Shown here piece by piece: positions 4,782 to 25,255 of a stretch of 25,255 bases of DNA. The stretch's first letter is position 1; every line of letters starts with the position of its first letter. The position numbers were made by a program, and so were the translations under genes. The notes under the pieces are model-generated. The model made no database searches and was not told the DNA's origin. It saw only the letters and a program-made list of their open reading frames with translations. The DNA lies in the IMG/VR virus record IMGVR_UViG_3300003324_000802, positions 1 to 25,255 of that record; one strand, 5' to 3'. This stretch comes from a virus.

Positions 4782-7475
4782 ATGGAAAATACCTACGTTG
4801 GCGGGACTGGACCTTTAGGTGCGAAAATAGCATTCGTAGGTGAACAACCAGCAAAATATGAAGCAAAATATGGCAAACCTTTCACTGGACCTGCTGGACA
4901 AAATCTCGACGAGTGCCTTCGAGAAGCACGTATTAGGAGAAGTGAGGTTTACCTAACCAATGTCGTGAAGGAATGTGGCTACGACATCAAAGCATACATT
5001 AAGATAACTAGCGGGACACGAGAATCAGCTAAACCTACTAATAAACTGTGGGGAATGTTTGTTGAGGAATTGCAGCGCGAGTTGATCGATGTTAACCCAA
5101 ACGTGATAGTGCCATTAGGTAACTCAGCATTGTGGGCTTTATGTGATCGCGCAAACATTACTATGTGGAGAGGGAGCGTAATTGAAAGTAAATTGTTACC
5201 AGGTAAAAAAGTAATACCTTGCCTGCATCCCGCAAGTTATACTCAGGATAAGTTGTTCAAGGCTCCTGAGGCTTACCTTAACAAATTCCTCATAATCATG
5301 GACCTGAAAAAAGTGAAGCGTGAAAGTGAGTACCCTGAGATTAGACTCACCAATCGCAAGGTTCACATGCGTCCGAGTTATCCTGAAGCACTCGAGTTTA
5401 TTGCCGATTGTATGCAGCGGGCTAAGGAAGGAGTGGCCATTGACTATGATATTGAACTTGACCCAGGATCGCAGGAACTAAGTTGTATAAGCTTTGCTAT
5501 TTCACCCACCGAAGCATTTTGCATTCCGTTTATGGACCAGACTGGTAATTATTTTACTCCAGAACAAGAACTCAAAATCATGCGTAGACTGGATGAGTTG
5601 TTTAGAAATTCTGGGTACGCAAAAGGAGGACAAAACATAGGATTTGATTCACACTATATGTTGCGGAAGTACGGCATACGCACGCGTAATATTGAGCGTG
5701 ATACTATGGTAGCACAACGGATACTTTACCCTGAATTCTCACGAATGCATGGTGGAGGAGCAAGGCTAAATTTTATCACCGCAATGTGGACGGACATTCC
5801 ATACTACAAAGCAGATGGGAAAATGTGGTTAAGTGGTATAACTGACTGGGAGAAAGGTTGGCAATACAATGGGCTGGATAGTATAAGTTGTGCTGATGCC
5901 TTCCCAAAACAACTCAACGAAATTGAGGAAAGGGGACTTCAGGAAACATATCAGCGTCAGGTAAGACTGATTCCAGCACTTACTTACATGATGGAGCACG
6001 GAATACGAGTTGATGTGAATGGCATTAAAGATGAGTATATCAAAAATCTGAACGCAGAGGTGCGGTTGGAAGAACAACTAAACAGACTTGTAGGAAGAGA
6101 GTTTAATCCGAGAAGTCCAAAGCAGGTAGCACAATTACTTTACAATGAAAGGGGATTTAAACCACGTGTAAAGGATGGCAAAGTTACTACCAATAGTGAT
6201 GCGCTGTTGTATATGATGAGTAAAGGATGCAAGGAAGCTGAGTTAATACTTAAAATTAGAAAGTCTAGAAAGTATGCGAAAACATTCCTCAATCCAGACA
6301 AAGTGGACAAGGACGGTAGAATTCGTTGTAGCTATAATCCGGTTGGTACAAAGTTTGGTAGGATTAGCTCTAGCCGTAATATTTTTGGCACTGGTATTAA
6401 CCTTACAAATGTGCCTCATTCCGTACTATCTCATTTCCTCGTTGATAAAGGATACGTGGGTTACTCCTTGGACATGAGTCAAATTGAGAACAGGTTTGTT
6501 GCGTACGTTGGCAATATTACTGAAATGAAGGAAGTCTATGAGAAAGGTCAGGATTCACATACCAAGACAGCGGCGCTTATTTTTCACAACGGAGACCTTA
6601 GTAAGGTCAAACTTGAGTACGGGTCATGCCCGTTGGGGGATGGCACTCACGATGAAAGGTTCTGGGGTAAAAAAGCTAATCATGGATTTAACTATGGATT
6701 TGGGCCGCAATCATTTAGCGACATGTATGACGTACCTCTCAATCAGGCGAAATGGATTCACTCAGCATATCACAAGGCATATCCGGCACTCGAAAAAGGT
6801 TACTGGGCCTATGTGCAGGATCAACTTAAGCGGACACGAACACTCACGAACTTACTAGGTAGAAAAACGTTGTTTTTAGGTAAGTGGGAACAGAATATGC
6901 TTAACGCAGCATACTCATGCATTCCGCAAGGATCAAACGCAGACCATATGAACGAGCGCGGAATTGAGTTTATCTACTACAACACGGATCCGTTGTTTAA
7001 GCCAGTAGAGTTACTCACTTACATTCATGACTCGTTAGAGTTTCAGTTGCCATTGTCACTACCACTCGTCGAGCATGCCAAAGTTATACTAAAAATTAAG
7101 GAGAGTTTGGAAACACCTTTTAGATGGCGCAATGAAGAGTTCGTGGTGCCTTGTGATCTGACGGTAAATTTCTGTTTGAATAAGGAATTAGGTGTAGAAA
7201 TTAAAGGTAAGGAGTTCAGCCAGCACCAAGAAATTTTAGCAGACAAGATTCTACTGTCTATAATTGACCTGGAATATGGATTACTAATTGAACATGAGAG
7301 TGATGGTAGGAAGTATACTACATTCCACTGTGGAGAATGTCGAGAAGAGATTAAGCGTAATTGGACAGGAAGACATGAGTTACTAGTTCATACAGTGAAG
7401 TATCACAGTGAACTTATTGATGCGGAAATGGCTAAGTTAATAGGAGTTGAGTTATGCGCAACGATAGGCCACTAG
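4782..7475 (+). CDS. uracil-DNA glycosylase / DNA polymerase I (family A) fusion
   Basis: The phage replicative polymerase, 897 aa. Residues 1-180 are a family-4/5-like uracil-DNA glycosylase: GEQPA (20-24), FTGPAGQNL (34-42), TNVVKEC (59-65) and LHPASY (149-153). A 3'-5' proofreading exonuclease follows with DYDIE (221-225; D223/E225), NIGFD (285-289) and YNGLD (362-366). The family-A polymerase has KFGRISSS (524-531), motif A LDMSQIE (563-569), motif B KKANHGFNYGFG (630-641), QGSNAD (716-721) and motif C YIHDSLEF (747-754). The usual Glu of motif C (HDE) is Ser here. A tail after about 815 contains CxxC (C850, C853) and HxxxxH (H865, H870), a possible zinc finger. UDG-polymerase fusions are known, for example in phage SPO1. 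The N-terminal CxxC expected for an iron-sulfur family-4 UDG is missing. The start lies two bases after the preceding stop. Confidence 0.93.
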   Translation: MENTYVGGTGPLGAKIAFVGEQPAKYEAKYGKPFTGPAGQNLDECLREARIRRSEVYLTNVVKECGYDIKAYIKITSGTRESAKPTNKLWGMFVEELQRELIDVNPNVIVPLGNSALWALCDRANITMWRGSVIESKLLPGKKVIPCLHPASYTQDKLFKAPEAYLNKFLIIMDLKKVKRESEYPEIRLTNRKVHMRPSYPEALEFIADCMQRAKEGVAIDYDIELDPGSQELSCISFAISPTEAFCIPFMDQTGNYFTPEQELKIMRRLDELFRNSGYAKGGQNIGFDSHYMLRKYGIRTRNIERDTMVAQRILYPEFSRMHGGGARLNFITAMWTDIPYYKADGKMWLSGITDWEKGWQYNGLDSISCADAFPKQLNEIEERGLQETYQRQVRLIPALTYMMEHGIRVDVNGIKDEYIKNLNAEVRLEEQLNRLVGREFNPRSPKQVAQLLYNERGFKPRVKDGKVTTNSDALLYMMSKGCKEAELILKIRKSRKYAKTFLNPDKVDKDGRIRCSYNPVGTKFGRISSSRNIFGTGINLTNVPHSVLSHFLVDKGYVGYSLDMSQIENRFVAYVGNITEMKEVYEKGQDSHTKTAALIFHNGDLSKVKLEYGSCPLGDGTHDERFWGKKANHGFNYGFGPQSFSDMYDVPLNQAKWIHSAYHKAYPALEKGYWAYVQDQLKRTRTLTNLLGRKTLFLGKWEQNMLNAAYSCIPQGSNADHMNERGIEFIYYNTDPLFKPVELLTYIHDSLEFQLPLSLPLVEHAKVILKIKESLETPFRWRNEEFVVPCDLTVNFCLNKELGVEIKGKEFSQHQEILADKILLSIIDLEYGLLIEHESDGRKYTTFHCGECREEIKRNWTGRHELLVHTVKYHSELIDAEMAKLIGVELCATIGH

Positions 7476-7864
7476 ATAATCCACGTATACAAAATGGACT
7501 GGACGTGTTTCACTATTTATGTATAGAGCAAGATTTAGCAGGAGGGATTTATTTGCTGGATGATAAGGAAATGGGATTTTCCTATCATATGGACGCAACA
7601 TGGAATGCGTTTGTAATGGATGCTGAGTTACCATCGGGATTTAGAATTAGAGTTAAACAGGATGAACTTGGCAGAGAAAGGGCAAAAGAGTTCCTGGAAG
7701 GGGCAGCATTTGTAATTGGCATGATGCAACAGTTTGGTTACCAAACTAGGTTATGGGGAAAGGATTTACAAAAACTTGTGGAAAAATCAGGAATGAAAAT
7801 CCACCACAATTATCCTAAGGTAGAACATTTGTACGGAGTAGATATGAGGAAAAAACGTAACTGA
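7454..7864 (+). CDS. hypothetical protein, 136 aa
   Basis: I do not recognise this protein. It overlaps the polymerase gene by 22 bases and has AGGAG eight bases before its ATG, so it is almost certainly translated. The sequence suggests a compact alpha/beta domain: LAGGIYLLDDKEMGFSYHMD, a strand region (LPSGFRIRVKQDEL), then helices (RERAKEFLEGAAFVIGMMQQ) and a short basic C-terminus. No cysteine cluster, membrane helix or catalytic motif is seen. Its TGA lies at the foot of a GC-rich hairpin, after which a structured non-coding leader begins. An association with the polymerase is a guess from coupling only. Confidence 0.6.
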   Translation: MRNDRPLDNPRIQNGLDVFHYLCIEQDLAGGIYLLDDKEMGFSYHMDATWNAFVMDAELPSGFRIRVKQDELGRERAKEFLEGAAFVIGMMQQFGYQTRLWGKDLQKLVEKSGMKIHHNYPKVEHLYGVDMRKKRN

Positions 7865-7903
7865 CTCCGCCGCTCCCGCGTCGAAGAGTCGGAGGCGTGG
7901 AGT
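7864..7903 (+). other. GC-rich hairpin at the stop codon of the 136-aa gene
   Basis: ACTCC (7864-7868) pairs with GGAGT (7899-7903), and the inner CTCC (7873-7876) pairs with GGAG (7891-7894), with small bulges between and a loop of about 14 bases. The stem starts on the last base of the TGA. It has no following T-tract, so it is not a standard terminator; processing, transcript protection or a pause are possible roles. Its composition stands out from the AT-rich genes around it. Confidence 0.45.
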
Positions 7904-8024
7904 TGTGGGTCTGTGCGCATTTTGGGTTACTCACAAGGAAGAGCGAGTCAAGATATCACTAGGGTAGAAAGGCTCTCCGACGGATTAGTAAGTCTATTTA
8001 CCCTTGCGTATCGGAGGGAATATC
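7865..8024 (+). promoter_or_regulatory. structured non-coding leader, copy 1 (riboswitch- or attenuator-like, unknown class)
   Basis: The largest non-coding stretch of the left arm. After the GC hairpin comes a domain related to the - strand leader at 14976-15131: a 24-nt block (7924-7947) containing the hairpin ACTC/GAGT, then TCACTAGGGTAGAAAG (7956-7971), then TTAGTAA (7985-7991). Downstream, CTCTCCGA (7973-7980) pairs over 8 bp (one G-T) with TCGGAGGG (8011-8018), which contains the ribosome binding site of the next gene. AGGGTA (7961-7966) pairs with TACCCT (7999-8004). The two helices interleave, so they form either a pseudoknot or two exclusive states. The GGGT at 7924-7927 can compete for the same ACCC. 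Translational control of the zinc-ribbon gene is inferred. No ORF, tRNA or promoter was recognised in it. Confidence 0.55.
7924..7991 (+). repeat. conserved core shared with the - strand leader (copy 1)
   Basis: Three ordered blocks match 14998-15095 on the - strand. Block 1 (7924-7947) is identical at 20 of 24 positions, block 2 is TCACTA...GAAAG (7956-7971), and block 3 is TTAGTAA, exactly 13 bases after GAAAG in both copies. This copy is shorter: 8 bases separate blocks 1 and 2, against 37 in the other. Confidence 0.65.
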
Positions 8025-8264
8025 ATGGCAGAGAAATGTGCTGTGTGTGGTGAAGTACTTACAGTGTACGGATGGACAAACGAGTACAAGGTAAGTCATT
8101 ACGTGTGCGTGAAATGTTCTGACGAGAAAGGAGAAACAGTAACATACGAACTGCCGACAGACGCAAGGATGGTTAGTTCACTCAAAATTTTGGAGGAGAG
8201 AGCTAAGTACCTTGAGGAGCATTGCCCTGAACTCAAAAGGGGGTTCTATAATGGAGAGGAGTAA
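8025..8264 (+). CDS. zinc-ribbon protein, 79 aa
   Basis: The ATG at 8025 is six bases after GGAGGG (8013-8018) and is preferred to an upstream in-frame TTG at 8004. The product begins MAEKCAVCGEVLTVYG and has a second pair, YVCVKCSDEKGE, so two CxxC knuckles (C5/C8 and C28/C31) make a small treble-clef or zinc-ribbon domain. A charged helix follows (MVSSLKILEERAKYLEEHC). The role is unknown; small zinc ribbons of this size in phages bind nucleic acid or protein partners. Its ribosome binding site lies inside the structured leader described above, so its expression is probably regulated. It overlaps the next gene by 14 bases. Confidence 0.75.
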   Translation: MAEKCAVCGEVLTVYGWTNEYKVSHYVCVKCSDEKGETVTYELPTDARMVSSLKILEERAKYLEEHCPELKRGFYNGEE

Positions 8265-8760: not shown

Positions 8761-9969
8761 ATGGAAAAACGCAGGGCAGGAGACTGGTTAAACTCGTATT
8801 TGAGATTGACTGATCACTCGGAACCACCCGAACTCTTTAGAAAGTGGGTTGGAGTAAGTGTTATTGCCGCTGCGTTAGAAAGAAAGTGCTGGTTAACGTG
8901 GGGGGATGATATTACTGATTATCCCAACTTCTACATAATACTAATAGGCCCTCCAGGTAAAGCTAGAAAAGGCGTGGCAATGCGCCAGGGCAAAAAATTC
9001 CTCAAGGACAAAGACCTCGACATTAGACTCGGACCAAATCGCACCACTCCAGAGTCACTCATAAATGATCTAAGTAATTGTGGGAAACCTGCAAAGTACA
9101 CCGACAAGAATGGGAAGGAGTTAATATTCCTACACAATTCACTTACTGTATTCAGTGGTGAGTTGACAGTATTTTTGGGTGACCGTGATAAAAAGTTTAT
9201 GGATGATCTTACTGATTTGTATGACTGTGAAGACGACTGGGAATATCGTACGAAAAATCAAGGCCAGCATCATATTGATGCGCCGTTCCTTAACCTAGTT
9301 GGTGCAACCACACCTCGTCTAATTCAGACAAGTTTACCACAGGAGGTAATTGGTGGCGGGCTAACGTCACGAATGATTTTTGTGTTTTGTAATGAAAAGG
9401 GCAAAACTGTTCCTGACCCATTTCCGCAACCTGGGTCATACGAAACTCGACAACGGCTACAGGGAGACTTGTTTGATATTGCGGGGATGTGTGGGCCATT
9501 TTCATTCACGGAGGCATTTTTAGATGCATACATTGAGTGGTATGGAAACGACGGATCATCCCCGACGTTCGATGACGAGAAATTTGAGTATTATTTTGAG
9601 CGGAAACAAACGCTGACACGTAAACTCAGCATGATTATGAGTGCATCACGTAGTAACGGTATGGTGATTGATGAGCAGGACTTCTTTAGAGCACTCGAAT
9701 GGTTGGAGGAAGTGGAGAAACCTATGCGTGGTGCGCTAAGAGGATTCGGCCGTGTTCCTACCTCGGAGGTTATGTCGCGAATAATGCGAGAAGTATCCAT
9801 GATGAAGGAGACGAATTACCGGTACTTGTTGCGTAAATACCACGCTGACCTTGATCTTCACGAATTTCAGAACATCCTAACTGCATTAGAAAAAATGGGG
9901 TACATAACAATTTACGAGAATACAGGTAAGGTAGTATTTAACGCTGATTTTGACCTTAACTCACTTTAA
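8761..9969 (+). CDS. DUF3987-like P-loop ATPase, possible primase/helicase component
   Basis: From ATG 8761 (GGGGGAG at 8750-8756) the protein has 402 aa. EPPELFRKWVGVSVIAAALE (21-40) and YPNFYIILIGPPGKARKG (54-71) match the start of DUF3987-type phage and plasmid replication proteins, whose P-loop is an unusual GxPGxxRK form; here the residue after the lysine is Gly rather than Ser/Thr. Further family-like segments are the SGELTVFLGD stretch (about 137-146) and LVGATTPRLIQTSLPQEVIG followed by GGLTSRMIFVF. The C-terminus (about 340-402) looks like a winged helix (LHEFQNILTALEKMGYITIY). It probably acts on replication-fork or origin DNA with the polymerase. Helicase activity is not demonstrated by sequence. 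The stop overlaps that of the convergent 1669-aa gene. Confidence 0.72.
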   Translation: MEKRRAGDWLNSYLRLTDHSEPPELFRKWVGVSVIAAALERKCWLTWGDDITDYPNFYIILIGPPGKARKGVAMRQGKKFLKDKDLDIRLGPNRTTPESLINDLSNCGKPAKYTDKNGKELIFLHNSLTVFSGELTVFLGDRDKKFMDDLTDLYDCEDDWEYRTKNQGQHHIDAPFLNLVGATTPRLIQTSLPQEVIGGGLTSRMIFVFCNEKGKTVPDPFPQPGSYETRQRLQGDLFDIAGMCGPFSFTEAFLDAYIEWYGNDGSSPTFDDEKFEYYFERKQTLTRKLSMIMSASRSNGMVIDEQDFFRALEWLEEVEKPMRGALRGFGRVPTSEVMSRIMREVSMMKETNYRYLLRKYHADLDLHEFQNILTALEKMGYITIYENTGKVVFNADFDLNSL

Positions 9970-14975: not shown

Positions 14976-14997
14976 ACGTGCTTCCTTGGATATTAGG

Positions 14998-15095
14998 TTA
15001 CTAAAAAAGCCGGGTGTCTTTCACCCCTTAGTGACCATTCCATTGAGTAACAGATGTCAGAGGAACAACTCCTCACTCTTTCCTGTGAGTCACCC
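14998..15095 (-). repeat. conserved core shared with the + strand leader (copy 2)
   Basis: On the - strand, block 1 lies at 15095-15072, block 2 (TCACTA...GAAAG) at 15034-15018 and TTAGTAA at 15004-14998, 13 bases after GAAAG as in copy 1. The extra 29 bases between blocks 1 and 2 hold two additional hairpins. Confidence 0.65.
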
Positions 15096-15099
15096 GGCT
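15003..15099 (-). terminator. intrinsic terminator-like stem with large branched loop
   Basis: The 9-bp GC-rich helix AGCCGGGTG/CACCCGGCT ends directly in TTTTTT on the - strand (15008-15003). The 74-base loop is unusually long for a simple terminator and is itself structured, which suggests conditional termination before the 1669-aa gene rather than a fixed end of transcription. Confidence 0.55.
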
Positions 15100-15111
15100 G
15101 TTCGGGGGTTT

Positions 15112-15129
15112 GAGGGGGGTTTCCCCCTC
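15112..15129 (-). other. GC-rich hairpin just after the 551-aa gene
   Basis: On the - strand GAGGGGG-AAAC-CCCCCTC is a perfect 7-bp stem with a 4-base loop, two bases after the TAG stop codon of the 551-aa gene. A second C-run (AAACCCCC) follows and could pair with the same G-run. No T-tract follows, so it is not a canonical terminator. It may block 3' exonucleases or stall the polymerase ahead of the leader. Confidence 0.55.
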
Positions 15130-15131
15130 GA

Positions 15132-24385: not shown

Positions 24386-25255
24386 CTAGTTCTGGTATCC
24401 AACCTCCCACTCTAAAATTGTTATAGCACCAGGTGAAGTTGTTGCATGCAGGAAGTAAAAGAAAGGAATCAACACTTCACCATTGTCGAAAGTAAATGCT
24501 GCAACGGTGTCCGGCACCGCATCATCATACTCGTAAGTGACAACTCCAGCTGAACTTACTTTCACAGTCAGCGAATGTGTTCCGCCATCTGCCCAGTTGT
24601 GAGTTGTATCAGTAGATGTTGTTGCTGCATTATTAAGTATTGTCTCAATGTACACATCTCCACTGATCACATTCATCACTGCCATTTCATCATAGTTATC
24701 AATTGCTGCCTGATTTGCTTCAAGCTTACGAAAACCAAAAGCACAATCATCAGTACCACTCACATCAGCAATTGTAAAACGACACCTGGCAAAAAATGCA
24801 GGATCAGTCCCAACCGTAAATTGAAATGGCGTGGATGTACTTACTCCGTGGTTAAGCTCTAACCCATCATTATCTGTTAAATCACAGGCAATATTAATTC
24901 CTGGATTTACCCAGATTGGTCCAAGAAGCGTCATCCCATCCCCTTTTGGGATGTAGTTAAAGTAATTGCCATTCGCCATAATCAGCGTATTAATTGAAGC
25001 TGCAGCTGAAGCAGGCCCACCGCCTACACTAGCACTTCCTACTGTGAATGGTACCTTAAACATTTCGTGAATATACTTCTCGTAAGTTATTGGGGCTCCA
25101 GAAACAACCTTTAGCTTGTGCCAGCGTTCTCCATCACTTACAAGTTGCACAAATTGGCCGACACGGAACAGCTGAATATTTCCCTGCCAATTCGAAGAGT
25201 CACGTTTGTGAGTAATCGTCAAAACGTAAGGAGTTGCAGCACTCCTATGAGCACT
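24386..25255 (-). CDS. partial fibre- or decoration-like beta-sandwich protein (5' end outside window)
   Basis: The reading frame is open to the window edge: upstream of a TTG at 25222 it continues in frame as SAHRSAATPYV without a stop, so this is the 3' part of a longer gene (at least 289 codons seen). The visible product has a strand-rich N-terminal part (WQGNIQLFRVGQFVQLVSDG) and a jelly-roll-like domain (FQFTVGTDPAFFARCRFTIA, CAFGFRKLEA, HSLTVKVSSAGVVTYEYDD, VLIPFFYFLHAT) ending in ILEWEVGYQN, the kind of LamG/concanavalin fold used by phage head fibres and surface decorations. It stands immediately before the decoration and capsid genes. The name is tentative. Confidence 0.6.
   Translation of the reverse strand, partial: SAHRSAATPYVLTITHKRDSSNWQGNIQLFRVGQFVQLVSDGERWHKLKVVSGAPITYEKYIHEMFKVPFTVGSASVGGGPASAAASINTLIMANGNYFNYIPKGDGMTLLGPIWVNPGINIACDLTDNDGLELNHGVSTSTPFQFTVGTDPAFFARCRFTIADVSGTDDCAFGFRKLEANQAAIDNYDEMAVMNVISGDVYIETILNNAATTSTDTTHNWADGGTHSLTVKVSSAGVVTYEYDDAVPDTVAAFTFDNGEVLIPFFYFLHATTSPGAITILEWEVGYQN

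Follow-up and report, generated by a model that had tools for sequence, protein, structure and literature searches.

What is the function of the only two large intergenic gaps in a stretch of phage DNA, and why do they resemble one another? The window analyzed here is an IMG/VR virus record of 25,255 bases that, judged by its content, represents part of a bigger, podovirus-like genome. The + strand carries the replication genes (Sak4-like, ParB-methylase, DNA polymerase, MazG-like, and primase) and the - strand the structural genes, and the two arms converge at 9966/9969. The large gaps, at 7865-8024 and 14976-15131, each contain an element, here E1 and E2, and an earlier note had proposed that these are two related structured RNA leaders founding a new cis-regulatory RNA family. 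Based on the evidence described below, we posit instead that E1 and E2 probably serve this phage as gene-control sites of its own. How would such sites work, at the level of DNA or of RNA, and do related phages have them?

Layout of the two elements

E1 (7924-7991, +) lies 5' of a small zinc-finger-like ORF (ATG at 8025), the MazG-like gene, and the primase gene. E2 (15095-14998, -) lies 5' of a 1669-aa gene (14975-9966, -), in the gap that separates it from a 551-aa gene (14976-15131, -). Both elements are oriented as the sense strand of their own operon. Block 1, with the consensus GGGTKACTCACARGRAAGAGYGAG, reads GGGTTACTCACAAGGAAGAGCGAG in E1 (7924-7947, +) and GGGTGACTCACAGGAAAGAGTGAG in E2 (15095-15072, -), the two being identical at 20 of 24 positions without a gap. 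Block 2 reads TCACTAGGGTAGAAAG in E1 (7956-7971, +) and TCACTAAGGGGTGAAAG in E2 (15034-15018, -), and its alignment takes one 1-nt gap. After block 1, both elements present the same order of words, namely, TCACTA (7956-7961, +, and 15034-15029, -), GAAAG (7967-7971, +, and 15022-15018, -), and TTAGTAA (7985-7991, +, and 15004-14998, -), and the spacing from GAAAG to TTAGTAA is exactly 13 nt in each; the distance between the blocks is some 25 to 30 nt longer in E2. TTAGTAA is an imperfect inverted partner of TCACTA in E1 (with a C.A mismatch) and the inverted partner of GGTCACTAA (15036-15028) in E2. A GC-rich hairpin stands at the stop of each preceding gene: for E1, at about 7866-7909 (+, without a T-run), at the end of ORF 7454-7864, and for E2, GAGGGGG-AAAC-CCCCCTC (15129-15112, -), at the end of the 551-aa gene. 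In all of these particulars, from the ordered blocks and the fixed spacing to the hairpins and the uniqueness of the two gaps, the earlier note was correct. In addition, the sub-motif GGTBACTMA, which was defined post hoc, has four exact copies in the 25-kb window, all of them inside the two gaps. For the iteron-like form GGTNACTMA, the count on both strands is matched by 3 to 6 of 200 shuffles, and we take an iteron-like role for it as suggestive only.

Is the likeness real? With three mismatches allowed, block 1 is found in the window at just the E1 and E2 sites, where 0.07 sites are expected. The similarity score of the two gaps was equaled by 3 of 20,000 dinucleotide-shuffled gap pairs, by 32 of 24,492 pairs of the window's own tiles (0.13%), and by 16 of 9,639 unrelated gap pairs from relatives (0.17%). 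About 0.15% of unrelated natural pairs do as well, which puts p near 1e-3 when natural sequence is the background. Judged from these sequence comparisons, the likeness is moderate and probably real, but not overwhelming.

Searches for further copies

Among named phages, Desulfofustis phage LS06-2018-MD01 comes nearest (major capsid, 56%), and the nearest records are the IMG/VR contigs G001 to G005, whose major capsid proteins are 71 to 74% identical to that of the window phage. Searching IMG/VR directly with individual proteins of the window returned zero relatives; relatives were recovered with alignments, their whole records were fetched, and the gaps were compared against each other inside each genome.

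No further copy of the pair was found by any route. An Infernal covariance model of E1 and E2, the search that the earlier note had proposed as the way to more copies, returned the two known copies only from 81 sources, as did a whole-record pattern search of 50 relative records. A profile of the pair found zero additional copies in about 160 relative loci, and exact and gapped patterns found zero sequences with both blocks in IMG/VR and the GTDB genomes. Block 1 has five matches in GTDB genomes, all in open frames of 188 to 584 codons, which we read as chance, and BLAST searches with each gap against phages, and with E2 also against plasmids, gave chance matches of about 20 to 45 nt only. Rfam yielded zero gathering-level matches in the window, nothing at E<=10 for the E1 gap, and sub-threshold noise only for the E2 gap.

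Tests at the RNA level

E1 is no better folded than its shuffles (z of -0.7 for the core and -1.6 for the gap), and it has no T-run. E2 is moderately better folded (z of about -2.5), and the source is a GC-rich stem in which GCCGGGTG (15098-15091) pairs with CACCCGGC (15016-15009), followed by T6 (15098-15003 in all, -); this terminator-like structure ends some 30 nt upstream of the start codon. The 3' strand CACCCGGC has two possible partners, GCCGGGTG in the long stem abutting T6 or GGGGTG in a local hairpin, GGGTG-AAAGA-CACCC (15026-15012, -), which overlaps the long stem. When checked against put/nut architecture, this 5-bp hairpin with its purine loop AAAGA was present in E2 and absent from E1. 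A small CTC/GAG hairpin around ACARGRAA is possible within block 1 of both elements, and the single altered stem position of that block (C/T opposite A) breaks the pair. No fold common to E1 and E2 was demonstrable, no sense-over-antisense folding bias was detected in either, no compensatory change separates them, and the structures downstream of the shared blocks are unlike one another.

Since there is no other copy, no common fold, no compensatory change, and no strand bias, the RNA-family proposal is left without positive support beyond the shared blocks. Thus, one part of the original description stands, that of two related intergenic elements, one per arm, each in the sense of its operon and behind a hairpin at the preceding stop; the structured RNA part does not, with E1 at the level of its shuffles and no fold in common. 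The new family, for which the note itself had looked to further homologues with covariation, falls for now: no homologue, no covariation, and no common fold were found.

Three RNA-level candidates were set aside along the way. A family of E2-like closing stems with a T-run gave 16 matches in relatives versus 10 in a reversed control. An open frame runs across E2 (GTG behind AGGAAAGA) and could suggest a leader peptide; a plasmid search gave no match for the peptide, and E1 lacks a comparable start. Pairing of CTCTCCGA with TCGGAGGG in E1, which would mask the ribosome-binding site, was dropped because it is equaled by 193 of 2,000 shuffles.

The E2 junction and inverted-repeat islands in relatives

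Is there a control point at the same place in related phages? In the four closest relatives (G001, G002, G003, and G005), the junction between the homologues of the 551-aa and 1669-aa genes is a gap of 249 to 279 nt, which in G002 sits behind a 67-aa ORF call. All four gaps open with a palindrome of the type GGTTARANTTTAACC, at or adjoining the upstream stop. We therefore regard E2 as lying at a control point whose position is conserved in the clade. The conservation is confined to these close relatives: more distant relatives have no gap at this junction, and none of the close relatives has one at the E1 position (the polymerase-primase interval).

The junction gaps of G001 and G005 contain an inverted-repeat island, a nested inverted repeat of about 130 nt described here by model R1, which is intergenic and has copies on both arms. 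Fourteen distinct copies were aligned (alignment A6): L177 (7854-7992, -, and 18979-19108, -), L178 (1034-1175 and 9407-9545), L179 (2046-2188, -), L185 (2246-2375), L186 (7042-7174 and 18868-18999, -), L187 (5586-5731, -, 6267-6398, 14645-14790, and 18104-18233), L188 (3772-3903), and L010 (1266-1396). Six of the 50 related records, each belonging to the closest group, contain the island, and Rfam does not. All 14 copies are more stably folded than shuffles (z from -2.6 to -9.8), and their helices covary, with 12 of 18 pairs altered on both sides and a covariation score of 0.39, versus 0.18 after shuffling and no more than 0.10 for slid controls. A promoter of the TTGACA-N17/18-TATAAT type (-35/-10 match of at least 9/12) occurs in 8 of the 14, the best at 12/12. 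The G001 junction island has TTGACA-N17-TAAACT (10/12, equaled by 1 of 200 shuffles), and the G005 junction copy has no sigma-70 match. In 13 of 14 islands, folding of the promoter-sense strand relative to its complement exceeds shuffle expectation, a weak hint of RNA-level selection via read-through transcripts.

In three of these four relatives (G001, G003, and G005), sense-oriented gaps on the two arms match each other; those of G001 and G005 are copies of the single island. In G003, the gap set differs from the island and, by eye, has no obvious sigma-70 promoter; its junction gap resembles a second gap on the other arm, and the mutually similar gaps (L184:2079-2555 and 9195-9860; L185:349-609, -) lie upstream of the ParB-methylase and of the homologue of the 1669-aa gene. 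In total, the junction and arm comparisons across the four relatives suggest that phages of this clade habitually carry islands in pairs, sense oriented and on both arms. The presence of the same kind of paired opposite-arm element in relatives counts toward the pairing that the earlier note had described.

What of this is present in the window itself? The palindrome GGTTARANTTTAACC has about ten copies per close relative with one mismatch allowed (reversed control, 0); in many cases AAAGGAG and a start codon come next, and an island often lies about 100 nt farther on. Examples in L177 to L188 (G001 to G005) are at L178:9290, L184:9307, and L186:6955. The window's sole copy, GGTTAGAGCTTAACC (24850-24864, -), has one mismatch and lies within an ORF. 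The best match of the R1 model in the window has an E of 0.56 and falls outside the E1 and E2 gaps, within which the best E is 8. With no island in the window and the palindrome only once, inside an ORF, the case for E2 rests on position and layout, not on homology. The layout that E1 and E2 share with the relatives is a hairpin at the stop, then the island, and then the ribosome-binding site.

Weighing the explanations

Our tentative preference, held at somewhat less than even confidence, is that E1 and E2 are a lineage-specific pair of promoter/operator-type intergenic control elements that act mainly as DNA. The blocks, with their positions and orientation, the hairpins, and the syntenic control gap of the relatives are observed; we infer promoter activity, a recognizing factor, and recognition of the blocks rather than of their flanks. 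In this model, the hairpin at the preceding stop would close off the transcript of the upstream gene, and the shared blocks (ACTCACARGRAAGAGYGAG and the dyad TCACTA...TTAGTAA) would serve as a promoter/operator for the host RNA polymerase and a phage or host factor. E1 would thereby restart transcription of the MazG/primase sub-operon on the replication arm, and E2 would do so, on the structural arm, for the ejection-type gene of 1669 aa. We count in favor of a promoter/operator pair the synteny of the E2 junction, the paired islands of the clade, the common layout, and the confinement of GGTBACTMA to the gaps; counted against it are the lack of an R1 match, the near absence of the palindrome, the lack of a gap at the E1 position in relatives, and sigma-70 scores not above shuffles. 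For -35/-10 boxes with a 16- to 18-nt spacer, E1 scores 9/12 (equaled by 21 of 200 shuffles) and E2 8/12 (123 of 200), neither beyond chance. A wider version, which we regard as possible but doubtful, is that the clade places control points ahead of key operons in which position and inverted-repeat architecture are conserved and sequence is not, each phage having its own homogenized two-arm island set, with E1 and E2 as the set of this phage.

Could the pair instead act in the transcript? A site acting in the nascent RNA of both operons to alter elongation or termination (put/nut-like), or else an attenuator, is rather unlikely, yet we rank it next after a DNA element, mostly because the E2 stem and T6 leave scant room for a promoter before the start codon. 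The folding of E2, the sense orientation of both elements, and the small hairpin around ACARGRAA agree with an RNA leader; the chance-level folding of E1 and its missing T-run, the absence of a strand bias, and the zero yield of covariation, further copies, or an Rfam match speak against one. We consider it less likely still that the likeness is trivial, with unrelated spacers or decayed, functionless duplicates happening to share about 24 similar bases and some short words. The blocks were chosen by eye, they are conserved in no other genome, and the natural tile and gap pairs counted above can be equally alike; however, shuffles almost never reach the score, several blocks recur in the same order with an exact 13-nt spacing, and the two gaps are the sole large-gap pair, both sense oriented. 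Most improbable, and disfavored, are promoters of a T7-like single-subunit RNA polymerase. TCACTAAGGGGTGA in E2 and TCACTAGGGTAGA in E1 are similar to T3/T7 promoter cores, and a T7-like pattern with two mismatches matches E2 at 15035, but it also matches coding DNA, and the spacing differs by 1 nt between E1 and E2. Moreover, a search for RNA_pol (PF00940) had no match in 19 related records or in the window, which is part of a genome; T7, the positive control, was found at an E of 1e-109.

Comparison with known systems

An analogue on the DNA/translation-start side is provided by the start-associated sequences and extended SAS (SAS/ESAS) of Cluster K mycobacteriophages, repeats that recur across the phage where some of its genes start and are mostly gene oriented. 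The SAS motif, 13 bp long, sits at the translation start and has 11 to 19 copies per genome; about half of the copies are immediately preceded by imperfect inverted repeats with a spacer of variable length (PMC3203893). E1 and E2 differ in having two copies within the window, a position farther upstream, and another sequence, and no SAS-like repeat at many translation starts was found, block 1 occurring only twice within the window. On the RNA side, the analogue is phage HK022, which has putL and putR, two cis elements of about 70 nt with similar sequence, one per early operon, each folding as two stem-loops that bind RNA polymerase (PMC9378689). E1 and E2 are likewise two similar cis elements, one per operon; unlike put, they have no demonstrable common fold and are located within operons instead of directly downstream of known early promoters. 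With T7/T3 class promoters they have the TCACTA-GGG word in common, and no single-subunit RNA polymerase was found in this phage group. With the R1 islands, the pair shares the junction of the 551-aa and 1669-aa genes (E2), the layout behind an inverted repeat at the preceding stop (a palindrome in the relatives), and copies on both arms; E1 and E2 have no sequence match to the model, no covarying helices, and no sigma-70 promoter such as most of the islands carry.

Taken by themselves, E1 and E2 carry modest stakes, as a phage-specific control element without homologues. The weightier observation is the many-copy island of the relatives, which lies outside Rfam and in which covarying nested inverted repeats surround sigma-70 promoters. 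If confirmed, the islands would offer a testable case of an uncultured phage clade coordinating its two arms, with control elements evolving in concert within a genome. If the wider, clade-level version is true, position-conserved island sets would constitute a class of self-matching phage control elements with fast turnover.

Two minor observations were made in passing. The window has an HNH endonuclease-like ORF (1798-2424, +), and the HNH genes of relatives vary in place, lying, for example, in the polymerase-primase interval of L165 and G005. A chance match of the block 1 scan, at L160:7786 (+), coincides with a long, internally branched GC-rich hairpin that GGACATAGTGTGGGG and CCCCACGCTATGTCC close and that a T-run follows.
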